Shown: piece by piece, positions 878-14,407 of the stretch
Layout: every line of letters starts with the position of its first letter
How positions within the stretch are numbered: the first letter of the stretch is position 1
Assembly (NCBI RefSeq): GCF_002024165.1
Contig: NZ_MWQN01000003.1
Span: forward strand, 620,001-684,000
DNA length: 64,000 nt
Source: Embleya scabrispora
GTDB taxonomy: Bacteria; Actinomycetota; Actinomycetes; Streptomycetales; Streptomycetaceae
Direction of reading: 5' to 3'
Notes under the pieces: generated by a model
What the model saw: only the letters and a program-made list of their open reading frames with translations
Databases searched by the model: none
What the model was told of the DNA's origin: nothing
Made by a program: the position numbers and the translations under genes

Positions 878-2251
878 TCAGCCGTCGATGCGGTACCGCG
901 CCCAAAACGGCGTCAGGTCCCGCGAAGCGGCCGCCCGAGCCGCCTTCTTGAACTCCGCCGTGGTGGAGATCCCGTACCGGTGGGCGGCGGCGTAGTCGCG
1001 CAGCAGCGTCTCCATCGCGGGTTCGCCGATCAGACGCCGCAGTTCGTGCAGCGCGCACTTGCCGTGGTCGTACACCACCGTCTCGTAGCGTGCCGGGTGC
1101 GCGTCCCAGTACCGCATCGAGTTCGTGATCCGCTCCGTCGGCGCGGCCCAGGACAGTTCGCTCCCGCACCCCTCCCCCGTCTTCCCGAGCGCGAGGTCCG
1201 TCGCGTATTCGGCGAACGATTCGTCGAGCCACGGGTCGTCGTACTCGTCGTTGCCCACGATCCCGTACCACCACTGGTGGGCGAGTTCGTGCACGAGCGC
1301 CGTGGGGCGCACGCGGTCCAGGACGAAGCCCGGATACTCCATGCCGCTGAACCACAGGTCGTCGTCCAGGACGATGTCCAGTTCGGTGTACGGGTACGCG
1401 CCGAAGCGCCCGGCGTGGGCGTCGACGGCCGCCCGCGCGACCTCCAACATGGCGCGGGCGTCGGCCGCTTCGACGCCGCCGTCCGCATACACGTTGATCT
1501 CGACGCCGGTCGCGGAGGTCCCGGATACCGCGGTGAACGGCCCCGCCGCCCAGGCGAAGTCCCGTACGTCGCGCGCCGTTGCGGTGGTGACGGTGCGTCC
1601 GGGTGCGCCCGGACGGTGGACCGAGGTGCCGGTGGCCGGTACCCGCAGGTTCGACGGGTGGTCGAGCGTGACGTCGAAGTCGGCGGCGAGCGAGTAGAAG
1701 GACTCACCCGTGTTCGTGTACGGGTCCAGGTGCCGGCCCGTCCCGTCCCGAACCGCCAGCACCGGCAGCGCGTTGCCGAGGAAGGCGTGGTCGCCGTCGT
1801 GGCCGAACCGGTCGATACCGGCCGGGACCCGGATCCGCAGCCGGAAGCCGATCGTGGCGCTCTCCCCTCGGCGCAGCGGCTCGCCCAACACGACCCGCAG
1901 GGCCGTGCAGCCGACGGACAGGCCCGCCGGAACACCGCCGGTGACCTCGGAGACCTCGATCGGCGGCGCCGAACACGTACCGTGCGCGTTGCCCCACAAC
2001 CGCAGGTACACCTCGCCGAGCGGCGCGGCCGACACGTTGGTGAACCCCACCCGTTCGCGGCCGGTCCACCCGCTCCCCGAGGCGTCCCCGGTCACCTCGA
2101 CCGTGTAGCGGGGCGCCGCCGGCGTGCGGACCGCCTCCGCCGGCGCCGCCGTGAACGCTCGTGCCCCTTCCGGGCGCACCGACCCGGAACTCGCTGCGAC
2201 CCCCGCGACGAACGTGGCCAGGGCGGCTAGGGCGGCCACGGCAATTCTCAT
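878..2251 (-). CDS. Secreted M1-family zinc metallopeptidase
   Basis: 457 residues with an N-terminal signal peptide (residues 1-22, MRIAVAALAALATFVAGVAA). The zinc site HELAH at residues 321-325 plus Glu344 in WLDESFAEYA gives the HExxH-18-E pattern of M1 aminopeptidases. The upstream exopeptidase motif, normally GAMEN, reads SGMEYPG near residue 302, so substrate anchoring may differ. The C-terminal ARM-like region of large M1 enzymes is missing, as in short secreted actinobacterial members. It would cleave N-terminal residues from extracellular peptides. It lies 111 bases downstream of the nucleoside-type cluster on the same strand and may be read through from it; a role in processing an aminoacylated product is only a guess. 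Confidence 0.88.
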   Translation of the reverse strand: MRIAVAALAALATFVAGVAASSGSVRPEGARAFTAAPAEAVRTPAAPRYTVEVTGDASGSGWTGRERVGFTNVSAAPLGEVYLRLWGNAHGTCSAPPIEVSEVTGGVPAGLSVGCTALRVVLGEPLRRGESATIGFRLRIRVPAGIDRFGHDGDHAFLGNALPVLAVRDGTGRHLDPYTNTGESFYSLAADFDVTLDHPSNLRVPATGTSVHRPGAPGRTVTTATARDVRDFAWAAGPFTAVSGTSATGVEINVYADGGVEAADARAMLEVARAAVDAHAGRFGAYPYTELDIVLDDDLWFSGMEYPGFVLDRVRPTALVHELAHQWWYGIVGNDEYDDPWLDESFAEYATDLALGKTGEGCGSELSWAAPTERITNSMRYWDAHPARYETVVYDHGKCALHELRRLIGEPAMETLLRDYAAAHRYGISTTAEFKKAARAAASRDLTPFWARYRIDG

Positions 2252-2362: not shown

Positions 2363-2896
2363 TCAGCCCTCGCTCTTGCGAGTGCGCTCGCGGTGCCGGG
2401 ACACCGCCCGGTGCAGCGCCGCGTCCACTTCGGGCAGGTATTCCGCGATGTCCCGGCCCTGCGCGTACTCCACATACTCCACCGTGGCCACGGTGTGCAG
2501 CCCTTGGACGAGGAACGTGTACTCCCGTCCCTCCTCCAGCATCAGCACGATGGGCTTGTCGAAGGCGCTGGCCCAGCCCATCTCGATGTGGGTGCCCGGC
2601 GAGGCGGGGAAGCCCGGGAGCGCGACGAAGACGTCGGCCTTGCGGATCTCGTCCTGGTCGAGGCCGGTGCACTGGTCCGGGCGCATCAACTCGGCGCCCC
2701 ATGCCTCGCGGCGGTGCGCGTTGTGCACGGCGAGTCCGCGTGCCTCGAAGTGTCGGATCAGGATGTCGAAGGGCGCCCGGGCATGCTCCGGCATCTCGCC
2801 GGTGGCCGGGTCGAGGAGTTGGATGAACGGCCCGGCCAGGAACAGCGAACTCACGTCGAGGCCGCACAGTTGGTCGGTCGAGGGGGCGATGGTCAT
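2363..2896 (-). CDS. Nucleoside 2-deoxyribosyltransferase-family N-glycosidase, CMP hydrolase (BlsM/MilB)-like
   Basis: 177 residues. The fold is recognised from SLFLAGPF at the N-terminus and DVFVALPGFPASPGTHIEMGWA, where Glu105 matches the catalytic Glu of the deoxyribosyltransferase family. In blasticidin S and mildiomycin pathways a member of this family hydrolyses CMP or hydroxymethyl-CMP to the free base, supplying cytosine for CGA synthase. The neighbours here make that role likely, but sequence alone cannot distinguish CMP hydrolase from other members. The start was chosen at ATG 2896 because GGAGG sits about 8 bases upstream; the frame stays open further upstream but there overlaps the methyltransferase gene. 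It is the last gene of the cluster, 43 bases after the methyltransferase. Confidence 0.8.
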   Translation of the reverse strand: MTIAPSTDQLCGLDVSSLFLAGPFIQLLDPATGEMPEHARAPFDILIRHFEARGLAVHNAHRREAWGAELMRPDQCTGLDQDEIRKADVFVALPGFPASPGTHIEMGWASAFDKPIVLMLEEGREYTFLVQGLHTVATVEYVEYAQGRDIAEYLPEVDAALHRAVSRHRERTRKSEG

Positions 2897-2939
2897 GCGG
2901 CTGCCTCCGGAATGAGATCGTGGGAACGGAACGGCGTGG

Positions 2940-3557
2940 TCAGGTCTTGCGGAAACACTGGATGTACGCCTGGCCGCTGGTGCCGTACGTGTACTCGGTG
3001 CCCGCGTACGCCTGGTACGGATGCGACTCGACCCGGATGCTCCGGAAGTGCGGCAGGTACTGCCACCGCAGTTCCGGCCGGGTGCTGAAGAAGGGGATGA
3101 ACACCCCGCCGGGGCGCAGCGCCCGCACGACCTCGGGCATGGTCCTCGCCCACAGCGCCTCGTCCTTCCATACGTCCATGTCCAGGGCGGGGTCGAAGAA
3201 CATCCCGTCGATGCTCTCCGACGGCAGTTCGAAGACGCGTTGGAAGAAGTCGCCGCGTTCGATGGTGAGGTTGTCGGGCAACGTCGGGTGCTCGCTGCGG
3301 AACAACTCCTCGACCTCGTCGAAGAGTTCGAGCACGGTGTGGCTGCGGGTGGCCGGGTTGCCGGCGATGCGCAGCGCGGACAGCCCCAGGCCGAGGCCGA
3401 CTTCGTAGAAGTCCCGGCCGTACTCGCACAACATGTCGGCACTGGCCCACATCAGGTCGCGCTCCCAGGCCTGCATGGCCTGTTCGCCGCCGATGCTCAG
3501 GGTCACCTCGCCGTCCTGCTCGACGAGTTCGATCTCGGGCTTGTCTCGGGTTTCCAT
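2940..3557 (-). CDS. SAM methyltransferase, guanidino-N-methyltransferase (BlsL/GAMT)-like
   Basis: 205 residues, class I Rossmann methyltransferase. The SAM-binding region reads DFYEVGLGLGLSALRIAG, with MWASADMLCEYG before it and the acidic GDFFQRVFELPSESIDGMFFDPALD after it. This arrangement resembles guanidinoacetate/arginine guanidino methyltransferases rather than generic small-molecule methyltransferases. In blasticidin S, BlsL methylates the guanidino group of the beta-arginine side chain, and a beta-arginine-forming aminomutase lies in the same cluster at 9403-10569. I infer the same step here. An AAGGACGG ribosome site precedes ATG 3557. It lies between the caspase-like gene (54 bases upstream) and the N-glycosidase gene. 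Alternative: a carboxyl or amine methyltransferase acting on the finished nucleoside. Confidence 0.75.
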   Translation of the reverse strand: METRDKPEIELVEQDGEVTLSIGGEQAMQAWERDLMWASADMLCEYGRDFYEVGLGLGLSALRIAGNPATRSHTVLELFDEVEELFRSEHPTLPDNLTIERGDFFQRVFELPSESIDGMFFDPALDMDVWKDEALWARTMPEVVRALRPGGVFIPFFSTRPELRWQYLPHFRSIRVESHPYQAYAGTEYTYGTSGQAYIQCFRKT

Positions 3558-3611
3558 GGCATCCGTCCTTTGCGGTGACGAGGGAAAGGGGGTTCGTGGG
3601 CGGGCGGATTC

Positions 3612-5504
3612 TCAGGTCGGGCGCGGCACGACCCCGAAGTGGCGGCGTGCCGTCGAGACGGCGAGGTCCTGCACGGCGAAGACCGTGAAGTAGTAGGCCT
3701 GCGGCGCGGTTTCCGCGGCGAACCGGACGCGGAAGGTGACGTCCCGGGGCCGGTCGTCCACGGCCCGGATGCGGACGGCGGCCGGTTCCACGGTCGTGTC
3801 CTCACGCAGGTACGTAGGCACGAACAGGCCCAGTCGTACCGGTCCCGGCCGGGCGGCCCGGAGCGCCACGCGCACCTCCAACACCCCGCCCTGCGCGACC
3901 TCGTCGGCCGCGTATGCCAGCAGGGACGGGGCCTCGGGCACCCGGAAGGTGACGTCGCCGCAGCGCATGCAGACCGCGCAGATCGTGTCCGAGACGTGCG
4001 GGAGCAGTCCGCGCCGGGTGAACTCCTGGGCGGGGCGCCCGCAGTGGCAGGCCACCTCCCGCACCTGCGGGTCGAGCGAACTGCGGTCGCCGAAGTGCGC
4101 GGGGTAGCTCATGATCTCGTTCTCGGGGTTCGCCACGACCTGTTCGGTGATCACGTGGTCCAGCGACTGGAGGTCGGCCGTGAGCGAGGAGCGGATCTCG
4201 TCGGGCGACTGGTCGGCGAGATGCGTCGGCCGGGCGAGCCACAGGTCCACCTTGCGCGCGAGCTTGACCAGCCTCGGACGCAACGCGTGGTTGTGCGGCA
4301 GCAGTTCCGAGGTGAGCAAGGTGGTGAGACGCCGTCCGACGGTGAGCACGAGCGGGTCGGGGCGGTGCTCGGAGGGGGTCGGCGCGGGCATGTCCCGGGG
4401 CGTGCGGGGCAATCCGAAGCGCATGAACGCCGGGTAGGGGTGCGATCCGGCGAGACCGGCGTTCAGGGTGTCCACGGAGTCCGCGCCGGCCAGGGCCGCG
4501 CGCATCCACGCGACGTTCTCCGGCCGGTCGGAGTCGTGCACGGAGACTGCGGCCACGACCGTGCGGGCCGGTCCGTCCAGGGCGTTGAGGAGCAGTTGAT
4601 ACCGGGGGTCGTACAGCGCGAGGTCGGCCAGCGGTCCGCTGTTGCAGGCGCTGAGCACCACCTCGGCCGCCTCCACGCGGTTGAGCGGGATCAGCTTGTC
4701 CTCGGGCTTGTAGCAGGGCAGTCCGTACGCGCAGCGCGGCCCGAGCAGTCCGGCCCGGGCCGGCACGGCCGCGTTCAGGCCGCAGATCGTGAACTCGCCG
4801 AGGTTGACGCTGTCGTCCTTGCCGTGCCCCTGGAACGCCACCCGGTGCCAGCGCGTGCCCAGGACCTCGGCGCGGATGTCGACCCGTTCGAAATCCCGGT
4901 CGTCGAACACCCGGACCCCGGACGGGTGCGGCGGGCGGTCGGTGTCGGTGAACAGGCCGATCGCGTCGACCCCGGCGGCCGGTGTCGAGGTGTACTGCTT
5001 GGCCACATTCCAGGCCACCGAGGCCGCGTCGCGTCCGCTCAGCAGGGTGAGGCCGGGCTCGCGGCCGCGGTAGGTGGTCAACAGCAGGCCGCGGATCGGG
5101 TCCAGGTTGAGCCGGTCGTAGCACCCGACGAGCAGCAGTGTCCCGGGGTGTCGACGCCGGAACGCCTCCGCCGTGCCGCAGAGTTCGTGCTCGGTGACCC
5201 ACGTGCGGGCGAGCGGGCGGGCCAGCGCGGGCAGGCCGTCGGGCAGGTCCTCCGCCCCGAGCAGGACGCCGACGTCCAGGGGCTCGGGGAGTTCGATCCC
5301 GGCGTACAGGCGCGAGGCCAGGTCGACGGCGTGCGCCAGGTCCGGGCGTTCCGCGCACGCCACGGGCACGGGGGTGTGCGCGGGCGCGACCAGGAACTCG
5401 GCCACCGCCTGGGGCAGTCGGTCGACGTCGACCACGGTGAACAGCGCGCCGGCGGGCGTCGGATCCGGGCGGTCTGGTGCTGCGGCGACAACGGGAGCGT
5501 TCAT
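3612..5504 (-). CDS. Caspase-like (CHAT-type) protein with zinc ribbon
   Basis: 630 residues, no signal peptide or membrane segment, so cytoplasmic. A caspase-fold His/Cys dyad is visible: His227 in AFQGHGKDD and Cys287 in VVLSACNSGPLAD, spaced as in CHAT/C14-type peptidases. Residues 486-515 carry CHCGRP and CAVCMRCGD, a five-cysteine zinc-ribbon-like cluster, and the last 90 residues look like a beta-sandwich. An Arg/His-rich helical stretch (about 395-450) lies between. CHAT proteins usually serve in defence or regulated proteolysis; a place inside a nucleoside antibiotic operon is unusual. It could process a peptide carrier or precursor, control pathway proteins or act in self-protection. 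No known family function is assigned. Confidence 0.7.
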   Translation of the reverse strand: MNAPVVAAAPDRPDPTPAGALFTVVDVDRLPQAVAEFLVAPAHTPVPVACAERPDLAHAVDLASRLYAGIELPEPLDVGVLLGAEDLPDGLPALARPLARTWVTEHELCGTAEAFRRRHPGTLLLVGCYDRLNLDPIRGLLLTTYRGREPGLTLLSGRDAASVAWNVAKQYTSTPAAGVDAIGLFTDTDRPPHPSGVRVFDDRDFERVDIRAEVLGTRWHRVAFQGHGKDDSVNLGEFTICGLNAAVPARAGLLGPRCAYGLPCYKPEDKLIPLNRVEAAEVVLSACNSGPLADLALYDPRYQLLLNALDGPARTVVAAVSVHDSDRPENVAWMRAALAGADSVDTLNAGLAGSHPYPAFMRFGLPRTPRDMPAPTPSEHRPDPLVLTVGRRLTTLLTSELLPHNHALRPRLVKLARKVDLWLARPTHLADQSPDEIRSSLTADLQSLDHVITEQVVANPENEIMSYPAHFGDRSSLDPQVREVACHCGRPAQEFTRRGLLPHVSDTICAVCMRCGDVTFRVPEAPSLLAYAADEVAQGGVLEVRVALRAARPGPVRLGLFVPTYLREDTTVEPAAVRIRAVDDRPRDVTFRVRFAAETAPQAYYFTVFAVQDLAVSTARRHFGVVPRPT

Positions 5505-5640
5505 GACGGGTGACCTCGTGTGTGATGTGGATTGGCCCGGTCGGGCACGGGACGAACCGGGGGCGGATGGGGATTCCGTGGGCGGTGGACGGCGATGGCA
5601 GGGTCGGAACGGTCCCGGCGGAGCGGTCGCAGCGGGGCGG

Positions 5641-6987
5641 TCACGTCGCGCACCGCGCCGGGGCCGCGGCCTCGGGAACGAGCAACCCGCGCCCCGCGAA
5701 GGCCAGTCCCGCCCCCACCAGGGCCACGCCGAACGCGACCGTGAACACACCGCGCGGACCGATCGGGTCCATCAGCAGACCACCGACCTGTTGACCCACC
5801 GCGTCCCCGAGGACCGTTGCCAGCGACGCCCAGGTGAACGCCTGTGCCAGCAGCCGCCGGTCCGCGAGGGCGCCGACGAGGGTCATCTCGCCGGCCGACA
5901 CCAGGGCCATCGGCATGCTCCCGACCACCAGGGCGATGCCCAGGGTCACCGGGGTGGTGGTGGGCACGGTCAGCCCCGTACCGATCGCGTAGGCGAGCAC
6001 CAGCCGGGGAAAGCGCACATGCATCGCGACCCGCGACGGGGCACGCCCCAGCCACAGCGCGCCCAGTGCGCTGCCGACTCCCCAGCACGCGTACACGACT
6101 CCCGTGCCGTCGCTCGATCCGTGCGCGGACACCGAGGCCGGAATGGCCAGCGTCATCAGACCGATCGGGACGGCGCTCGCCGCCATCACGCCCATCAGCA
6201 CGAGCATCGACGGATCACGCAGGGGGTGGCGCGGCGTATCCCGGGCGGCGACCCCCTCCGGGCCGGACTCGGTCGCCGCCTCCGGGCTCGTGGGCACGCG
6301 CACGCAGGCCAGGCCGAGGGCGCCCGCGCCGCCGACGACGGCGACCACGGTCAGCGCCGTTCCGGCGGATCCGCACACCATCAGGGCCGCGAGCATCAGT
6401 GGCGCGCCGATGACCAGGACCTCGGTGAGCAGGGCTTCCCAGAGGTAGGCGGTCTCGCGTTGCGCGTCGTCGAGCGGCATGCGCGCCCACAGCGCCCGCA
6501 TGCACGCGTTCGTCGGCGGCAGTGCGATGCCCGAGGCGACGGCCAGGACGGGCTGCGCCCAGGAACCGGGTCGGGTGGCCCACACCAGCGCGGCGAGCGT
6601 GGCCGGATAGGCGAGGCCGGTCACGATCAGCACGCCTCGGCGGCCGTCGCGGTCGAGCAGCCGGGCGATCAGCGGACTGCCGAGGGCCATGCCCGCCGTA
6701 TACAGCGCGGCGATCAGCCCGGCCTGCGGGTAACTCCCGCCCTGCTCGCGGATCGTCAGCACCATGGCCAGCGACATCAGGTAGACGGGCAACCGGGCGA
6801 CGACACTCCACCAGGCCACACCGGCGACGCCCGGGCGGGTGAGCAGGGCACGGAAGCGGGGGAGCAGCCCACCGTCGGGCCCGGAAGCCGCCGCCGGTGC
6901 CGAGTTCCCGGCGGCCGGGCCCGGGGCGACCTCGGATCCGGCGTCGATCCCGGTATCGGTGCCGTCCCGACGCGGAGCGGCGGTCAT
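5641..6987 (-). CDS. MFS exporter
   Basis: 448 residues. After a charged, low-complexity N-terminal tail (about 45 residues) come roughly twelve hydrophobic segments with the MFS loop motif LIARLLDRDGRRGVLIVTG between helices 2 and 3. This is the general layout of drug-proton antiporters. ATG 6987 overlaps the stop of the upstream ATP-grasp gene by ATGA, so the two are translationally coupled. Within this cluster it most likely exports the finished nucleoside and gives self-resistance. The frame remains open past the start toward 8310, but that part is a shadow of the ATP-grasp gene. Confidence 0.88.
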   Translation of the reverse strand: MTAAPRRDGTDTGIDAGSEVAPGPAAGNSAPAAASGPDGGLLPRFRALLTRPGVAGVAWWSVVARLPVYLMSLAMVLTIREQGGSYPQAGLIAALYTAGMALGSPLIARLLDRDGRRGVLIVTGLAYPATLAALVWATRPGSWAQPVLAVASGIALPPTNACMRALWARMPLDDAQRETAYLWEALLTEVLVIGAPLMLAALMVCGSAGTALTVVAVVGGAGALGLACVRVPTSPEAATESGPEGVAARDTPRHPLRDPSMLVLMGVMAASAVPIGLMTLAIPASVSAHGSSDGTGVVYACWGVGSALGALWLGRAPSRVAMHVRFPRLVLAYAIGTGLTVPTTTPVTLGIALVVGSMPMALVSAGEMTLVGALADRRLLAQAFTWASLATVLGDAVGQQVGGLLMDPIGPRGVFTVAFGVALVGAGLAFAGRGLLVPEAAAPARCAT

Positions 6988-8231
6988 CCGGACACCGGAT
7001 CGGGTTCGCGGACCGGGGCCACCTCGATCGTGAAGGCGTCCAGGACCGCCCTCATGCGCTGTTCGACCTGCCCGATCGACTCGCCCACGACGTGGACGTG
7101 CCCCGAGGCGTTGTGCGAGGCGCGGCGGGCCGTCACCGAGTCGCCGACCCCGGCCCGCACGACCGCGTCGACCACGCCCGGCAGGCGCAGGAGTTCGTCC
7201 GCCGAGGTGACCCGGCGCACCGTTCCCGATCCGGGCAGCGGCAGCAGCAGATCCCCGGCGCACCGGCGTTCGCGGTAGTCCAGGCGGGGGCGGCGCCCCA
7301 GGTACACGTCCAGCGTCGCCGCGAAGACGTCGAATCCGTAGGCGTGTCCGTGGTTGGCGGGGATCTCGCAGCCGGCCAGTCGGATCCCGATCTCGCCGGC
7401 GTACACCTGCCCGTCGACCACGAAGAACTCCATGTGGGCGTATCCGTGGTCGATGCCCATGCCGGTGACGATGCGCTGGAGCAGGTCGGGCAGATCCACG
7501 GCCGGGCCCTCGTCCGTGGCGACGCTGATGTTGGCGTTCATCGCGCCGTCGACGATGGCCAGCGGGCGGTGGGGCATCGCGCTGGGCCAGGCGCTCAGCA
7601 CCTCGCCGTCGTGGATGAGCGCGCACACCTCCCATTCGGTGCCGCCGAGGTACTGCTCGACCATGAAGTCCCGGGCGGCGAGGTCGATGTCCCGCACCGC
7701 GTCCCGGCCGCGCAGCAGGTGGGTGTCGACGCAGGCGAACGAGTCCACCGGCTTGAGGACGAGCGGCCAGCCGTGTTCGGCGGCGAACCGCTCCACCTCG
7801 GCCGCCGACCGCACCCGGTCGAAGGCGGCGGTACGCAGGCCGAGTTCGCGAAATCGCCGCTTCATCGCGGCCTTGTCGCGCACCCAGGCCACCTGGTGTT
7901 CGCCGAGGTGGGGCAACCCGGCCAGGGCGGCGAAGCGCTGTGCGACGTGCTGACGCGGCTCGGAGGGGTTGCAGAACCGGGTGGGTGGCGTGGGCAGTTC
8001 GGCGGCCCACTCCCGGTAGCGCCTGGCCTCCTCTGCCAGGGGCGCCCCCTCGCGAACCCAGAACGCCGGCAGGTGCGCGGTCTCGCTCAGGTAGTCCTCC
8101 CGCAGATCGCCACGCGCCTCGGCGAACCGCAGCAGGACCAGTTCCTGGGGCAACGCCCGCGCCGCGTAGCGGGTGAACGAGGAGGCACGGTCGTCCACCA
8201 TCAGCAGCGCGGGCGCCCGCCCCGTGCTCAC
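6984..8231 (-). CDS. ATP-grasp ligase of the nucleoside-type cluster
   Basis: 415 residues from GTG 8231, which overlaps the upstream stop as GTGA. ATP-grasp elements visible are Lys160 in WPLVLKPVDS, the MVEQYLGGTEWEV segment and the metal-binding pair Glu268 (HMEFFVVDG) and Glu280 (GEIGIRLAG). These enzymes activate a carboxylate as an acyl phosphate and join it to an amine. In context it is the obvious candidate for the amide bond between the cytosine sugar acid or amine and beta-arginine, or for adding another amino acid. The N-terminal 100 residues are a family-typical pre-ATP-grasp domain. Substrate assignment is inference; a close relative with known chemistry was not recognised. Confidence 0.85.
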   Translation of the reverse strand: MSTGRAPALLMVDDRASSFTRYAARALPQELVLLRFAEARGDLREDYLSETAHLPAFWVREGAPLAEEARRYREWAAELPTPPTRFCNPSEPRQHVAQRFAALAGLPHLGEHQVAWVRDKAAMKRRFRELGLRTAAFDRVRSAAEVERFAAEHGWPLVLKPVDSFACVDTHLLRGRDAVRDIDLAARDFMVEQYLGGTEWEVCALIHDGEVLSAWPSAMPHRPLAIVDGAMNANISVATDEGPAVDLPDLLQRIVTGMGIDHGYAHMEFFVVDGQVYAGEIGIRLAGCEIPANHGHAYGFDVFAATLDVYLGRRPRLDYRERRCAGDLLLPLPGSGTVRRVTSADELLRLPGVVDAVVRAGVGDSVTARRASHNASGHVHVVGESIGQVEQRMRAVLDAFTIEVAPVREPDPVSG

Positions 8232-9406
8232 ACCGCCTCCAGGACGCGTCGGATCGCCTTGACCGCGGCGACCTGTTCCGCTTCCGGCAACTCCGGGGCC
8301 AGCGGCACACACAGCGTGCGGTCCAACCGGTCGCGGGTACGGGCGAATCCGTCGTGGCTGAGCATGAGCGAGCCCTCGGGGGCGAAATTCCACGGGAAGC
8401 CGTCGGCGTAGATCGAGCGGCGGCCGGTGAGTACCGGATGCTCCGGCAACAGGTATTTGTTCAGCGTCCAGTTGGCGATGCCCTCGGCGGTCAGCGCGGC
8501 CACGGCGGCGTCGCGCAGGGCGCGGTCGCGGCAGCGGAAGCGCAGGCTGACCTTCGCGTCGCCCGCCGCGCGCGGCCGTACCTCCAGGTCCGCACGGTCC
8601 GGCAGGTCCCGCATCGCGATGGCGTACATGCGCTCCAGCCCCTCGAGGAGCTCGTCGAGGTGGCGGAACTGCTGGCACTGGACCGCGGCGACCTGCTCGC
8701 CGGTGACGAAGTTCTCGCCGTAGTGGGCGTCTTCGTTCCAGGTGGGATAGCGCCCGGGCACCCGCGCCGAGCCGTGGTCGTGGTAGCGGCGCATCGCCGC
8801 CCAGGCCTGCTCGTCGTTGCTGATCACCAACCCGCCCTCGCCCGAGGTGAGGATCTTGTTGTGGTGGAAGCTGAAGGTCCCCGCGTAGCCCGCGGTCCCC
8901 ACCGAACGGCCGTCCGGGAAGCGGGCGCCGAGGGACTGGGCGCAGTCCTCGATGAGATACGGCACGCCCTCGGGCAGCGTGGCCACCGTGCCCTCCATGT
9001 GGGCCACGATCACCCGTTCGGCGTCGGCCGGCAGCAGCGTGGGGTCCAGCGACAACGAGTCGTCGGCGTCCACCAGTACCGGGATCAGCCCGCAGGACAA
9101 CACCGCGCCGGCCACCGCCACGAACGTGACGGCCGGCATGTACACCCGGTCCCCGATGCGCGGGCGGGTGGCGATCAGCGCGAGCCTCAGCGCCTCGGTG
9201 CAGTTGTGTACGGCCAACGTGTGGGCTGCGCCCAGGCGTTCGCAGGTGACCCGCTCCAACCGCGAGGCCATGCTCTCGGTCTCGGTCTGGTAGCGGAACA
9301 ACACCCGGTGGTCGATGACCTCCCGCAGCTCCGTCATGTCGGACCAGTCGAGCCAGTTCGCGCCGTAGGGCAGGAAGCGCTGTCCCAGTCGCTTGTCCAG
9401 GGTCAT
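8228..9406 (-). CDS. DegT/DnrJ/EryC1-family PLP enzyme (BlsH-like)
   Basis: 392 residues, fold-type I sugar aminotransferase family. PLP-contact residues are visible: HNCTEAL near residue 68, Asp154 in LIEDCAQSLGA, and the Schiff-base Lys184 in FSFHHNKILTSGEGG. With the lysine present it can form an internal aldimine; DegT enzymes that lost it act as dehydratases by a different route. In blasticidin-type clusters a DegT enzyme modifies the decarboxylated cytosyl sugar (amination/dehydration to the unsaturated amino sugar). ATG 9406 overlaps the aminomutase stop (ATGA). It follows the aminomutase as blsH follows blsG, which supports the assignment. Confidence 0.87.
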   Translation of the reverse strand: MTLDKRLGQRFLPYGANWLDWSDMTELREVIDHRVLFRYQTETESMASRLERVTCERLGAAHTLAVHNCTEALRLALIATRPRIGDRVYMPAVTFVAVAGAVLSCGLIPVLVDADDSLSLDPTLLPADAERVIVAHMEGTVATLPEGVPYLIEDCAQSLGARFPDGRSVGTAGYAGTFSFHHNKILTSGEGGLVISNDEQAWAAMRRYHDHGSARVPGRYPTWNEDAHYGENFVTGEQVAAVQCQQFRHLDELLEGLERMYAIAMRDLPDRADLEVRPRAAGDAKVSLRFRCRDRALRDAAVAALTAEGIANWTLNKYLLPEHPVLTGRRSIYADGFPWNFAPEGSLMLSHDGFARTRDRLDRTLCVPLAPELPEAEQVAAVKAIRRVLEAV

Positions 9407-10569
9407 TGCGCGTCCGCCTCCGTGATCGGGTACACCGCGTTGTCGACGAGCATTTCCTCGCCCTTGTGGTTGCGCAGGCGCAGGCCGTCGGGGGTGACGC
9501 TGAAGTAGGGTCGCGCGATGGGGATCTTGCCGAGGCGGGTGGTCAGCACGTACTGCGGCACCCCGAACCCGGTGATGTGGCCCTGGAGGCCCTCCATGAT
9601 CTCCCAGCCCTTGGCCACGGAGGTCATGAAGTGCGAGACGCCGGTGACGTTGTCGCAGTGGTACAGGTAGTACGGGCGGACCCGGATGCGCAGCAGTTCC
9701 GTCATCAGCGTGCGCATGGTCGCGACGTCGTCGTTGATCCCGCGCAGCAGCACGGTCTGGTTCCCGACCGGGATCCCGTGACGCAGCATGCGGTCCACCG
9801 CCGCGCTCGCCTCCGGGGTGATCTCCTTGGGGTGGTTGAAGTGGGTGTTGATCCACACCGGGTGATGGCGGGCCAGCATCTCGCACAGTTCGTCGGTGAT
9901 GCGCTGCGGCAACAACACCGGGAATCGACTGCCGATCCGGATGATCTCCACGGTCGGGATCGCCCGCAGTCCCGCGATGATCTCCTCGAGTTTGCCGTCC
10001 CGATAGGACAGCGGATCCCCGCCGGTCAGCAACACGTCCCGGATCTCCGGGTGATCGGCGATGTAGCGCAGATCCTCGTCGAAGGACTCGCCCTCGTCGT
10101 CGCGGAAGTAGGTGCCGTTGACGTCGGTGGTGTGGAACTTGCGCGTGCAGTGCCGGCAGTACACCGGGCACGCCTCGGTGACCAGCAGGATGACGCGGTC
10201 CGGATACTTGTGCACGACGCGGTTGGTCTTGCGGTAGTACGTGTCGCCGACGGGGTCGACCTCCGCGCCGGTGAACTCGACCAGTTCGCCGCCCGCGGGC
10301 ACGGCCTGTTGTCGCACGGGGCACAGCGGGTCGTCGGGATCCATCAGCGAGGCGTAGTAGGGCGTGACGCTCCAGCGATATCGCCCCGCCACCCCGGCGA
10401 TCGCCTGCTCCTCCTCGGGGCTGAGGTTGATCCACTGCCGGGCCTTGTCGACGTTGGTGATGCGTCGACGCATGTGCCAGTGCCAGTCGTTCCAGTCCGA
10501 GTCGGGGACATCGGGGCGCACGATCGTGGGGGCGGCCTGGGTGTCGGTGTCGAGGGGTGTGGTGGACAT
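9403..10569 (-). CDS. Radical-SAM, PLP-dependent 2,3-aminomutase (arginine 2,3-aminomutase, BlsG-like)
   Basis: 388 residues of the KamA family. The radical-SAM cluster motif is C134-x3-C138-x2-C141 (ACPVYCRHCTRK), followed by LLTGGDPLSY. The likely PLP lysine is Lys348 in TTRLGKIP. Lysine 2,3-aminomutase grips the substrate side-chain amine with two aspartates. The first is kept (Asp306 in YHCDNVTG), but the second, which precedes the glycine-rich PLP loop in true lysine enzymes, is replaced by Thr and the loop is shortened. That fits a substrate other than lysine, and arginine is favoured by the neighbouring BlsD-, BlsE- and BlsL-like genes. The product would be beta-arginine. It starts a coupled series aminomutase-DegT-ATP-grasp-MFS. 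Confidence 0.87.
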   Translation of the reverse strand: MSTTPLDTDTQAAPTIVRPDVPDSDWNDWHWHMRRRITNVDKARQWINLSPEEEQAIAGVAGRYRWSVTPYYASLMDPDDPLCPVRQQAVPAGGELVEFTGAEVDPVGDTYYRKTNRVVHKYPDRVILLVTEACPVYCRHCTRKFHTTDVNGTYFRDDEGESFDEDLRYIADHPEIRDVLLTGGDPLSYRDGKLEEIIAGLRAIPTVEIIRIGSRFPVLLPQRITDELCEMLARHHPVWINTHFNHPKEITPEASAAVDRMLRHGIPVGNQTVLLRGINDDVATMRTLMTELLRIRVRPYYLYHCDNVTGVSHFMTSVAKGWEIMEGLQGHITGFGVPQYVLTTRLGKIPIARPYFSVTPDGLRLRNHKGEEMLVDNAVYPITEADAQ

Positions 10570-10725
10570 GGCGGCTCCAGGGTTGACGGGCCTTCGGCGA
10601 CACGAGGCGTTCGGTCGGGGCGCGCGGGGCGGGACCCGGCCGGGTGGGGGGTGACGCGGGCGCTCAGCGGTGGCGGTACGGCCGGGTCGGCGCCCGATGG
10701 ACCGCCTCGCCGGGGGTCGGGCTGC

Positions 10726-11715
10726 TCACAGTGGTGCGAGCGCGAGTTGGCGCAGGGTGCGGGCGACGCGCTGGGCGCCGCGCAGATCGTCCGGTTCGGG
10801 ATCGAGGACATCCCACGGCACGGCGTCGTCGGACGATTCCCATACGGAGTCGTGCTCGGGATCGTCGACGAGCGGAATCGGGACCAACTGCCGCACTTGT
10901 GCGGCGAGATCGCGCTGGGCCGCGCCCAGGGCGGGCACGAACGCGAGCGGCGCCCGCCGGGCCCGGGCCAGGCCGACGGCGCCCAACGTCGGTGCGGCCA
11001 GGAACACTTCGGCCTCGGCGTGCAGCGTGTCCACGTCCACGTCGACCGCGCGACGCACCCGCACCCGCCGGTCGTCGCCGAGGCCCGCCAGCGCGGCCCG
11101 GATCGGCTCGAGCCGGGTATCGCAGACCACGTCGCACCGGCCGGTCCGGCGCAGCGCCGCGCGGACCAGCGCGGGCACCGTCTCGGCGGCGAAGGTGTCC
11201 GCCTCGGCGGCCGGCACGTTCCACGCCGACAACAGCAGCAGGGTTCCTTCGCGTTTCCGCCTGCGCGCCGTCCGGGCGGGCGCGAGCAGGCCGGTGGGGC
11301 GGGCGTCCGTGGCCCCGGGGACGGGGTCGGGGGCGGGGTCGGGCAACCATCCGGGTCGGTGGACCCGATGCAGCACACCGTCGAGGCGCGCGGGTGGGTC
11401 GCTCGGAGGCCGGTGGCCGGAGGTCAGATGTACCACCGGCACGCCGGACGCGCGCAGCCGTTCCGTGGCGCCCTCGTCGTCGCAGACCAACACCACGTGC
11501 GGCGGCGGCTCGTCGGGCGCCTCCAGGACCGGCCGCAGGTCGCCGAGGTGGGCGGCGATCCGGCGCCGGGCGAGCAGCGAGTCCAGGTGCTCGTCGCGGG
11601 AGACCAGGAGGATCCGCCGCCCGGACTCGGCGGGTGGTGGCGCGGAGCCCGGTCCGGGATCCTCGGCGGCCGTCCGTCGGGCGTCGGCCCCTTCCCGGGG
11701 AGTCAGTACTGCCAT
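10726..11715 (-). CDS. CGA-synthase-related protein of unknown function (BlsF position)
   Basis: 329 residues. No confident family assignment. RRILLVSRDEHLDSLLARRR and PHVVLVCDDEGATERLRASG look like Rossmann-type strands of a GT-B glycosyltransferase, and the protein may be a degenerate relative of the CGA synthase two genes upstream. The central part (residues about 120-160) is a Pro/Arg-rich linker. ATG 11715 overlaps the radical-SAM stop by 13 bases, so it is translationally coupled. Its place between the decarboxylase-like and aminomutase genes matches blsF in the blasticidin order D-E-F-G-H. It could be a non-catalytic partner of the glycosyltransferase. A 156-base gap follows before the aminomutase. 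Confidence 0.6.
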   Translation of the reverse strand: MAVLTPREGADARRTAAEDPGPGSAPPPAESGRRILLVSRDEHLDSLLARRRIAAHLGDLRPVLEAPDEPPPHVVLVCDDEGATERLRASGVPVVHLTSGHRPPSDPPARLDGVLHRVHRPGWLPDPAPDPVPGATDARPTGLLAPARTARRRKREGTLLLLSAWNVPAAEADTFAAETVPALVRAALRRTGRCDVVCDTRLEPIRAALAGLGDDRRVRVRRAVDVDVDTLHAEAEVFLAAPTLGAVGLARARRAPLAFVPALGAAQRDLAAQVRQLVPIPLVDDPEHDSVWESSDDAVPWDVLDPEPDDLRGAQRVARTLRQLALAPL

Positions 11716-12692
11716 GCCGTCACCGACCCGAGCCGGGCGACGTCGTCGCTGTAGCCGGCCGCCGTGGTGGAACAGCCGTTGCACACCAGGGGCCCGTGTT
11801 CACGGTAGAAGTCGGCATGCGCGCGGAACGCCGGTGTGTCCAGGTCGATCACACCCGCCTCGCGCAGCGGCGCGCCGCCCGGCCCGTCGTCGCCTTCGCG
11901 GTGCGGGATGCAACTGCACGCGTACATCCGTCCGTACTTGCCGTCGATGTAGATGACGTCGTCGGCGACGTGGCACTGCGGCAGCGACGCGCGGGGGGTG
12001 ACGGATTCGGTGAAGTAGGCTTCCTGTTCCGCCGGTTCGTCCCCGTAGAAACGTTTGCCCATCGGCACGAGCAGCACGTTCGGGTCCGCGTCGTAGACGC
12101 GGCCGCAGACGCGGCGCACGTCGTCGGGGTCGGGGTAGGTGATGCTGCGGTCCAGTTTCAGCGCGGACAGTTCCCACTGGCGCACTCCGGCGGACGTCAA
12201 CACCTGCTGGAGCTGCGGCATTTCGGAGTAGTTGTGCGGTCCGACGACGGTGTTGACCCGGGGCAGGACGCCGAGGTCGGCGGCGGCGCGCAGTCCGCGC
12301 AGCCCGCTGTCGAACATGCCGGGCGAACGGCGGTAGACGTCGTGGGTGGCCGCGGACGCCCCGTCGAGGCTGACGATCACCTGGGCCAGGCCCGCCTCGG
12401 CCAGCGGCTCGGCCATCCTGGGCAGCATCGAGCCGTTGGTGATCAGGGACATCTTCATGCCGGCCGCCGTGCCCGAGCGCACCAGGTCCACCACGTCCGG
12501 ATGCATGAGCGGTTCGCCGCCGGTGAAGCGCACGTAGGCCACGCCGGCCGCGCGGGCTTTCGGCAGCAGGTCGGCGAAGTCCTCGCGGGAAAAACGAAAT
12601 GTGTCGCGCGACAAGGCGAAGTCGCACATGAAACAGTCGGCGTTGCAGGCTTCGAGAATCCGGACGAACAGATAACGATGACGCTCACGCAC
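11703..12692 (-). CDS. Radical-SAM enzyme, cytosylglucuronate decarboxylase (BlsE)-like
   Basis: 329 residues from GTG 12692 (AAGGGG upstream); an ATG at 12731 in the same frame would add 13 Pro-rich residues. The 4Fe-4S motif is C16-x3-C20-x2-C23 (EACNADCFMCDF), then FTGGEPL and ITNGS as in SPASM-type radical-SAM proteins. Later cysteines (LPQCHV, YACSCIPH, LVCNGC) suggest an auxiliary cluster. In blasticidin S biosynthesis the radical-SAM enzyme BlsE decarboxylates cytosylglucuronic acid at C5 of the sugar. Its position directly after a CGA-synthase-like gene supports that role, although family members with other substrates exist. Confidence 0.8.
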   Translation of the reverse strand: MRERHRYLFVRILEACNADCFMCDFALSRDTFRFSREDFADLLPKARAAGVAYVRFTGGEPLMHPDVVDLVRSGTAAGMKMSLITNGSMLPRMAEPLAEAGLAQVIVSLDGASAATHDVYRRSPGMFDSGLRGLRAAADLGVLPRVNTVVGPHNYSEMPQLQQVLTSAGVRQWELSALKLDRSITYPDPDDVRRVCGRVYDADPNVLLVPMGKRFYGDEPAEQEAYFTESVTPRASLPQCHVADDVIYIDGKYGRMYACSCIPHREGDDGPGGAPLREAGVIDLDTPAFRAHADFYREHGPLVCNGCSTTAAGYSDDVARLGSVTAWQY

Positions 12693-12770
12693 GGGGGACC
12701 CCTTCGGGCCGGTCGGAGGCGGGGCGGGCATGGGTGTGGCGGTGGTGCGACGGTCGAGGGTGTGTGGCGG

Positions 12771-13979
12771 TCAGGCGGCCCGGGGTACGCCCGGCAGCAG
12801 CGCGAGCAGGGCGTCGGCCACGTCCGCGGCCCCGTCGACACCGACGGTCGCGGTCAGCGCGCCCCAGTCGCGGGTCTCGGCGGCGGCGGCGCGCAGCGCG
12901 GTCAGGATGTCGTCGCGCAGCACGACGGCCGTGCTCCGGCCCGCCGTGTCCGCCGCCGCGGCGATTCCGGCGTAGATGCGTTCCAGGGCGTGGTCCTCGC
13001 CGCGGGTGCGCAGCGACAGCGCCTCCTCCTCGGCGAACACCGCTTTGGGCCAGGCGATTCGGGTCTGCGTACCGATCGCGCGGCTGTGGAAACGCCCGTT
13101 GAAGATCTGGCTGAGGTTCTGCGGCGGCAGGCACAGGGTGGGGACGTGCTGCCGGCCGGCCTCGAGGAGGGTGGTCAGGCCCGGGGAGGTCAGCAGCACG
13201 TCGCAGCCGGCGAGCCGGTCCAGGAACTCGCCGTGTGCGAGCGCCCCCGTGGTCACGTGTGGCGGGGTGATCGACGCGTCGACGAGGCGCCCGGCGAGGT
13301 CGGCGGGCAGGTTGCCGGCGAGGTGTACCTCGTGTACCCCGTGGGCGGCGAGCGCTTCCAGGACGGCGGGAACGACGATGCGCGGGTAGGCCGTCCAGTC
13401 GGCGAGCGCGGGTGCGCGCAGGCCGCCGAGGCTGACCAGGGCGGTGCGGTGGGGACCGGCGACGGGGGCTGCGCGCCCGGAGCGGGCCGGGGTGCCGACG
13501 ACGGCGCCCACCCAGCGCAGCGCTCGCACGGATGCCAGCACGTCCCGGCATTCGGGGGGCAGTTCGACGCACTTTTGCGCGCAGTAGACCGTCGCGTCCA
13601 GGGGCAGCGCCGCCCGGTCCCCCTCGCCCCACATGAACGGCAGGCTGTCCACGAAGACGGTGGGGACGCCGGCCGCCTCCGTCGCCTTCGCGACGGCACC
13701 GTCCAGGACGACGACCGCGGCCACCGCCGCCTCCGCGCCGGCGACGGCGGCGACGGCCTCGCGCAGGTCCTCGGCGTCGTTCGGCAGGTCGTACCAGCGC
13801 TCGATGGCGTGTTCGGACAACACGGGCCGACCGAGCCCGGAGGCCACGCCGACGAATCGCAGGGGCACGGCCGAGCGTTGGCCCAGGGCCGCCAGGATCG
13901 CGCCGAGTTTCCCCGAGCTGCCCCAGCCGAATTCCGCTCCGGAGACGATTACGGTTCGTGTGCTGGAATCAGTGCGCAA
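12771..13979 (-). CDS. Glycosyltransferase, cytosylglucuronate synthase (BlsD/MilC)-like
   Basis: 402 residues, GT-B fold. The N-terminus VIVSGAEFGWGSSGKLGAIL suits an acceptor-binding Rossmann domain, and LLTSPGLTTLLEAGRQHVPTLCLPPQN is the donor-sugar (nucleotide-sugar) region common to MurG-like transferases. CGA synthases join UDP-glucuronic acid to cytosine in the first committed step of blasticidin- and mildiomycin-type nucleosides. No ATG is suitable; the best start is TTG 13979, with GAGACGG upstream. It is the first gene of the minus-strand cluster, behind an AT-rich promoter region. Assignment relies on resemblance plus the flanking radical-SAM, aminomutase and DegT genes. Confidence 0.75.
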   Translation of the reverse strand: MRTDSSTRTVIVSGAEFGWGSSGKLGAILAALGQRSAVPLRFVGVASGLGRPVLSEHAIERWYDLPNDAEDLREAVAAVAGAEAAVAAVVVLDGAVAKATEAAGVPTVFVDSLPFMWGEGDRAALPLDATVYCAQKCVELPPECRDVLASVRALRWVGAVVGTPARSGRAAPVAGPHRTALVSLGGLRAPALADWTAYPRIVVPAVLEALAAHGVHEVHLAGNLPADLAGRLVDASITPPHVTTGALAHGEFLDRLAGCDVLLTSPGLTTLLEAGRQHVPTLCLPPQNLSQIFNGRFHSRAIGTQTRIAWPKAVFAEEEALSLRTRGEDHALERIYAGIAAAADTAGRSTAVVLRDDILTALRAAAAETRDWGALTATVGVDGAADVADALLALLPGVPRAA

Positions 13980-14158: not shown

Positions 14159-14407
14159 CTACACCGAGAGCGGGACCGGGTGGACTTCGTCCGCCGGGTG
14201 ACCTGCACGTTCGTGGACGCGTTGTACCGCGTCGGCCGTGGGGGCTTCGGACAGGCAGTACACCGTGCCGGACTCCGGGTCGGCCCATGCCTGCTTGAAG
14301 TGCACGCCCTCCTCTGCCTCGATCGCCAGGTCGGCCTGGTGGGCCGCTGCCAGTTGTTCGTCGGTGATGCCGGTCATGCCGGTGTGGACGTCCATGAAAG
14401 TCGCCAT
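14159..14407 (-). CDS. Small DUF4242 protein (SCO4226-type nickel-binding family)
   Basis: 82 residues beginning MATFMDVHTGMTGITDEQL, the typical start of the DUF4242/SCO4226 family. These are ferredoxin-like small cytoplasmic proteins, and one Streptomyces member binds nickel. The start ATG 14407 has AGGAGG about 10 bases upstream; an in-frame ATG further up would add a low-complexity leader without a good ribosome site. One cysteine is visible (TVYCLSEAP). It is probably monocistronic. The stop at 14159 lies about 110 bases from the cluster promoter, so it reads toward but not into the cluster. Physiological role unknown. Confidence 0.8.
   Translation of the reverse strand: MATFMDVHTGMTGITDEQLAAAHQADLAIEAEEGVHFKQAWADPESGTVYCLSEAPTADAVQRVHERAGHPADEVHPVPLSV

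Follow-up and report, generated by a model that had tools for sequence, protein, structure and literature searches.

An apparently complete blasticidin S-type gene cluster in Embleya scabrispora, with candidate genes for the addition and removal of leucine

Ten adjacent genes in a stretch of 64,000 nucleotides of Embleya scabrispora DNA (contig NZ_MWQN01000003.1, positions 620,001 to 684,000; hereafter the window, located at C3:620001-684000 of a genome of 10.96 Mb, G000) almost certainly form a cluster of the blasticidin type. Leaving aside the roles of its gene K and of an adjoining M1 aminopeptidase gene, the whole is probably a complete blasticidin S-type cluster. As a cluster it is ordinary, one more of the blasticidin type; comparison with its relatives nevertheless proposes candidates for two open steps in the biosynthesis of a much used selection antibiotic, K for the addition of leucine and the M1 gene for its removal. 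Among the matches listed in the open-access literature, no paper containing both 'blasticidin' and 'Embleya' was found, and blasticidin goes unmentioned in a paper on an Embleya genome.

Gene content and order of the cluster

The ten genes lie on the minus strand, from 13979 down to 2363, in the order D-E-F-G-H-I-J-K-L-M, and neighbours overlap or stand at most 156 bp apart. These distances hold for the chosen starts; the longest open reading frames (ORFs) were over-long, and starts were set using upstream sequence and homologues. The names D to H, L and M follow blasticidin nomenclature, whereas I, J and K are positional labels that imply no equivalence with BlsI, BlsJ or BlsK. Window proteins were compared with Pfam, with NCBIfam (curated equivalog cut-offs, in bits) and with the sequences of the Protein Data Bank (PDB); structures were studied with AlphaFold2 and Foldseek. 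The features are the following.

D, 12771..13979, minus strand: cytosylglucuronate (CGA) synthase, 402 amino acids (aa), TTG start as in homologues; TIGR04467, 557 bits (cut-off 300)
E, 11703..12731, minus strand: radical-SAM cytosylglucuronate decarboxylase, 342 aa; TIGR04466, 643 bits (cut-off 400)
F, 10726..11715, minus strand: CGA synthase-related protein, 329 aa; TIGR04469, 350 bits (cut-off 150)
G, 9403..10569, minus strand: arginine 2,3-aminomutase (beta-arginine), 388 aa; TIGR04468, 641 bits (cut-off 600)
H, 8228..9406, minus strand: DegT-family pyridoxal phosphate enzyme, 392 aa; PF01041, 154 bits
I, 6984..8231, minus strand: ATP-grasp, L-amino-acid-ligase-like enzyme, 415 aa; PF18603
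J, 5641..6987, minus strand: major facilitator superfamily (MFS) transporter, presumed exporter, 448 aa; PF07690
K, 3612..5504, minus strand: CHAT/separase-like protein, candidate leucyl transferase, 630 aa, with C-terminal beta-strands; without significant sequence matches in Pfam, NCBIfam or the PDB
L, 2940..3557, minus strand: guanidino-N-methyltransferase-like (BlsL-like) protein, 205 aa
M, 2363..2896, minus strand: CMP N-glycosidase (BlsM-like), 177 aa, motif FLAGPFIQL
M1 aminopeptidase, 878..2251, minus strand: 457 aa; PF01433, 61.6 bits (cut-off 27.7); signal-like N-terminus (by eye) and HELAH-x18-E zinc motif

Four proteins, D, E, F and G, exceed the curated equivalog cut-offs, and these scores support the proposal of a first-pass annotation that the locus is a cytosine/beta-arginine peptidyl-nucleoside cluster of the blasticidin type. 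The genes named there, and their blasticidin-like D-E-F-G-H order, are borne out by the family matches, by the strand and by the order in the blasticidin counterparts. The glycosyltransferase and the radical-SAM protein, whose placement outside the CGA families would have spoken against that proposal, both lie inside (557 against 300 and 643 against 400 bits). In E the CxxxCxMC and GGEP motifs are present, and their residues are invariant across 15 aligned sequences, the window's included. For G, the PDB search returned lysine 2,3-aminomutase (2a5h, 5.6e-108), and the S. cellostaticus counterpart scores 652 bits with TIGR04468. I matches Pfam LAL_C2 above its cut-off and ATP-grasp_4 below its cut-off, and finds the L-amino acid ligase 4wd3 in the PDB (1.8e-11). 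The methyltransferase and CMP-hydrolase homologues that had been placed at the far end of the cluster are indeed found there. L has no match in Pfam or NCBIfam, its best solved relative being a guanidinoacetate N-methyltransferase (a weak match, 3.3e-6), and M is closest to BlsM (5vto, 1.1e-59, 63% identity) and then to MilB (4jem, 2e-49).

BlsE (TIGR04466) occurs in 16 of the 394 family genomes, in three of the four Embleya genomes (G000, G001 and G002) and in one of 396 genomes sampled from the phylum, which is again that of the window; none of 14 control genomes has it above the cut-off. Scanning a collection of genome contigs (genome_contigs) with the BlsE alignment (A2, 15 sequences) gave 41 loci. 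In 24 of them one strand carries D-E-F-G-H-I-J-K-L in this order, so that H, J and L are collinear there as well, and the collinear L counterparts in these loci were found to be 75-97% identical. M directly follows L in 19 of the 24 (in L034 it is cut by the locus end), and was not found within the fetched stretch in the other five (L024, L029, L035, L042, L043). The remaining 17 loci are either short or cut contigs (L028, L031 and L057, for example) or relatives that are distant or weak and have their genes ordered differently.

The locus of S. cellostaticus DSM 40189 (L030) appears to be the best stand-in for the original blasticidin cluster because its M is 91.5% identical to the crystallized BlsM sequence. 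The D to M order of the window is the same as in this locus and in that of S. morookaense DSM 40503 (= JCM 4673; L022), with no additional gene between D and M. The window shares with the bls cluster a CGA synthase, a radical-SAM decarboxylase, a CGA-related protein, an arginine 2,3-aminomutase, a DegT protein, a methyltransferase and a CMP hydrolase. The first-pass annotation had taken the ATP-grasp, CHAT and MFS genes in the middle to set the cluster apart. This view cannot be kept: I, J and K stand in the same places in the 24 collinear loci, S. cellostaticus included, and the idea that they are foreign to the cluster was rejected. With it falls the main ground for expecting a new product.

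Loci of other kinds depart from this arrangement. L053, which we take from its gene order to be mildiomycin-like, has the order M-D-H-E, with no match to G, I, J, K or L in the fetched stretch. Two others, L045 (S. coeruleorubidus) and L071, possibly arginomycin-like on our assumption, have M-D-E-F-H with homologues of I, K and L, as in the window; unlike it, they show no G in the fetched stretch and carry K and L on the opposite strand.

Gene K, a candidate for leucine addition

Two amide bonds have to be made in the pathway, and I and K are likely the only cluster proteins to form them. K is for this reason a candidate for leucyl transfer; by elimination, and by analogy with a proposal made for Pur6, we give this role a chance slightly below even. 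In the puromycin/cystocin case, Pur6 is large and in part resembles the cysteine proteinase gingipain R in structure; it is proposed to couple the amino acid to the nucleoside using aminoacyl-tRNA (PMC11641026). The likeness of K to Pur6 is one of description. In the mildiomycin cluster, MilH has been called a putative tRNA-dependent aminoacyltransferase (PMC11784345). As of a 2017 paper, the activity of the enzyme adding leucine in the blasticidin pathway had not been demonstrated (PMC5572114), and blasticidin is unmentioned in the accessible part of a review of aminoacyl-tRNA-dependent enzymes (PMC12945691). Among the papers listed from the open-access literature, none was seen to name the function of K; most papers in subscription journals, where much of this field appears and where one may be in print, lay outside the search. 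The earlier statement that no leucyl-transfer gene is visible becomes doubtful, K being a good candidate.

At the sequence level, K of the window has no match in Pfam, even at E<=5, in NCBIfam or among PDB sequences. The 28 other members of its alignment (A3, 29 members), 35-95% identical to it, gave only stray Pfam matches, at E of 0.058 or worse and in one member each. Invariant throughout the 29 members are His227 (in GHG), Cys287 (in SCN or ACN) and the cysteines 486/488 (CxC) and 512/515 (CxxC); His227 and Cys287 would make up a His-Cys dyad like that of CHAT/separase-type clan CD proteins. AlphaFold2 models reach a mean predicted local distance difference test (pLDDT) score of 84.2 at full length and of 83.6 for residues 18-376. 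With the latter, Foldseek returned two matches at E<=0.001, both to TPR-CHAT of Craspase (7.5e-4 and 9.9e-4; probability 1.00), with template modelling (TM) scores by query of only 0.38 and 0.36. Separase and DdvA come next (E 0.01-0.04), and TM scores by query span 0.32-0.38 across the matches. The model of K thus has a CHAT/separase-like fold, under which the protein is filed by fold alone, and the earlier label 'CHAT protein' was right at this level.

K matches (E<=1e-4) occur in 25 of the 394 family genomes, among which are all 16 with BlsE. Of the nine others, G003 carries K-L-M-M1 on a contig of 4.9 kb, presumably because of an assembly gap, and G417 has J-K-M; a different context surrounds K in G645, G554, G453 and G697 and the additional copy in G542, and only weak or partial matches come from G692, G777 and G762. 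Five full-length relatives outside CGA clusters (L101 to L105) are 40-46% identical, and an ATP-grasp-like gene lies no more than about 6 kb from each of them. In L101 (by Pfam) and L102 (by like sequences) the relative stands beside genes for a LysW-like carrier, an amino-acid kinase, a semialdehyde dehydrogenase and a DegT protein, and in L103, L104 (both by Pfam) and L105 (by eye) beside nonribosomal peptide synthetase (NRPS) or peptidyl carrier protein genes.

Since both TPR-CHAT and separase, which among solved structures come closest to K in fold, are proteases, it may be envisaged that K is instead a peptidase or a regulatory protease, deleucylating for example. In such a model I, which does resemble L-amino acid ligases, would make both amide bonds, or the host would supply leucylation. 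A deleucylating K agrees poorly with the observation that leucine was removed similarly well in S. lividans with and without the bls cluster and that, in E. coli, the activity was lost only in a pepN mutant (PMC4664946). The relatives of K beside carrier-protein and NRPS genes, in clusters with no assigned product, are also consistent with acyl transfer, without proving it, and we hold the protease model to be rather unlikely. Several observations nevertheless count against K as a leucyl transferase with a CHAT-like fold. A distant member outside the alignment (L105) has no His at the usual place; full-length K gave no CHAT or caspase-type protease among the 50 Foldseek matches listed, which by name are mostly beta-sandwich proteins; and the mildiomycin-like locus has no K match in 20.9 kb, so that K is not common to all CGA nucleosides.

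As side observations, contig C371 of the draft genome G417 (L108) carries J-K-M without L. Neither BlsE nor L was matched in that genome, in a search run without a positive control, and the arrangement may reflect a demethyl variant or an assembly gap. Homologues of CGA synthase and BlsE also occur in records named outside Actinomycetota, L049 (a metagenome-assembled genome (MAG) of Ardenticatenales) and L050 (a MAG of Lysobacterales), the former with K as well.

An M1 aminopeptidase gene adjoining the cluster

In the known pathway, leucine is removed by PepN, whose gene lies outside the bls cluster and for which action at the cell surface has been proposed (PMC4664946). The window differs from the bls cluster in having an M1 aminopeptidase gene after M, starting 111 bp past it. 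A homologue directly follows M on the same strand in all 11 clusters examined (gap -4 to 186 bp), belonging to four Embleya genomes (G000 to G003) and to seven genomes of a group that contains Kitasatospora (g249: G456, G509, G514, G532, G542, G544, G564), and the HExxH-x18-E zinc motif is found in each of the 11 proteins. The M1 protein does not belong to the S. lividans-type PepN equivalog (TIGR02412, 66.5 bits against a cut-off of 591). Judging from sequence, we see a deleucylase role for it as evenly balanced between true and false, and its signal-like N-terminus hints that it might be secreted.

The M1 gene appears to be tied to the cluster and not to a particular chromosomal location, because the genes beyond it mostly differ between genomes: among the nine of the 11 genomes in which they were read (all save G003 and G514), together with three places where a relative lies away from a cluster, they are common only to G544 and G564 and to the window genome and G001. 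In the concatenated six-protein tree (24 loci and the window), the six M1-bearing clusters included form one clade with a support of 0.96 (inner node 0.76), next to which stands S. lavendulae (L023), where no M1 gene is seen in the 0.7 kb after M. Six genomes of another group (g2) that have BlsE (G525, G579, G648, G686, G505, G632) contain only distant M1 proteins (27-34% identity). In a survey of gene families recurring near the clusters, which covered the window and 36 stretches (in some cases the same genome counted twice), the M1 gene and an ABC-F gene were the only ones to recur widely beyond D-M. Three further recurrent families look like antisense ORFs by position, one real-looking family occurs in five stretches (L038, L039, L061, L065, L066), and other families are confined to three stretches or fewer.

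The gene could also be a mere chromosomal neighbour with no part in the pathway. This would fit the relatives with 65-68% identity that the lineage has away from clusters of this kind: in G410 and G554, two genomes in which BlsE was not matched, and as an additional copy in G542. They weigh against a dedicated deleucylase, as do the uncertainty of some M1 starts (G456, G509, G514), the splitting of the match into two pieces in G456 and G514, and the judging of the signal peptide by eye. On the other side, all 11 clusters have the gene adjacent to M and in its orientation, the genes that come next, read in nine of them, differ save in two close pairs, and in 10 of the 11 genomes the gene is the sole copy above 60% identity. 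We find the neighbour explanation less convincing than a link to the pathway. Among the papers listed from the open-access literature, none was seen to report a cluster-linked aminopeptidase; one may be in print in the subscription journals, most of whose papers lay outside the search.

Predicted pathway and product, and further genes around the clusters

The genes can be arranged into a pathway for which the reactions of D, E, L and M and the leucylated intermediate are published, and gene families, order, conservation, the K fold and the M1 linkage are computed; we infer what F, H, I, J, K and M1 do, which leucyl donor K uses, that M1 is secreted and what the strain produces. M would release cytosine from CMP, and D would couple it to UDP-glucuronate to give CGA, which E would decarboxylate. 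E, H and possibly F would then turn the sugar into amino, unsaturated cytosinine, the parts of F and H being presumed from their families. G would make beta-arginine, and I, again presumably from its family, would join it to cytosinine, giving demethylblasticidin S. Addition of leucine to the beta-amine by K would mask toxicity and permit N-methylation by L to leucylblasticidin S, which J would export. Outside the cell, the cluster-linked M1 of this lineage would remove leucine to release blasticidin S. In support of these steps, formation of CGA by D/MilC and its decarboxylation by E are on record (PMC3715490), deletion of blsL causes leucyl-demethylblasticidin S to accumulate and BlsL methylates the guanidine efficiently only once the beta-amine is leucylated (both PMC5572114), and the bls cluster in S. 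lividans at first gave leucylblasticidin S only (PMC4664946).

The gene complement points to leucylblasticidin S, then blasticidin S, as the simplest product, and blasticidin S itself is predicted with reasonable assurance. The nature of M bears on the base. Enzymes of this type cleave CMP, those acting on 5-hydroxymethyl-CMP having Arg or Lys at the position of MilB Arg23, where BlsM has Met (PMC4081090). In the window M, an Ile of FLAGPFIQL occupies this position, the positive charge is absent, and plain cytosine would therefore be expected. The mil cluster shares with the window the families of CGA synthase (MilC), decarboxylase (MilG), DegT (MilD) and CMP hydrolase (MilB) (PMC11784345), and differs from it in this residue.

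The first-pass annotation favoured a new beta-arginine/cytosine nucleoside over blasticidin. Some divergence speaks for it: identity between the window proteins and their S. cellostaticus counterparts ranges from 48% (F) to 84% (G), so that a modified product is possible, M is 63% identical to BlsM, and in the concatenated tree the window cluster lies on a branch separate from S. cellostaticus. Against a new nucleoside, gene content and order equal those of the blasticidin-cluster counterparts, with nothing extra between D and M, M is without the hydroxymethyl-type motif, and both the arginine aminomutase and the methyltransferase are kept. Positive signs of a product different from blasticidin S were not found, and a new nucleoside seems improbable. 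The prediction of blasticidin S has its own weak points: it is read from genes, and the comparison is with counterparts of the S. griseochromogenes cluster, at the identities just given for S. cellostaticus.

A broader scheme may be imagined, in which the locus would be a self-contained cassette for masking, export and unmasking. K, with its CHAT/separase fold, would be no protease but the aminoacyl transferase leucylating inside the cell, a secreted M1 of this Embleya/Kitasatospora lineage would unmask outside, and K would found an amide-forming CHAT-fold family also serving unrelated carrier-protein and NRPS pathways. Taken as a whole, this is speculative and rather unlikely.

Two minor observations concern genes beyond the cluster. 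An ATPase gene which we assume to be ABC-F-like, and possibly to act in ribosome protection, lies inside the fetched stretch of 10 of the 41 loci at E<=1e-20 (L021, L023, L027, L040, L041, L044, L048, L051, L053, L054), and in six of them (L021, L023, L027, L040, L041, L051) it is immediately before D and divergent from it. None was seen in the fetched stretches of the Embleya loci L019 and L020; in the window genome the sole match at E<=1e-50 lies away from the cluster (G000:C1:329583-331262) and is 61% identical. Upstream of D, the window also contains an ORF of 82 aa at 14159-14407 on the minus strand, whose product may resemble proteins of the nickel-binding DUF4242 type.

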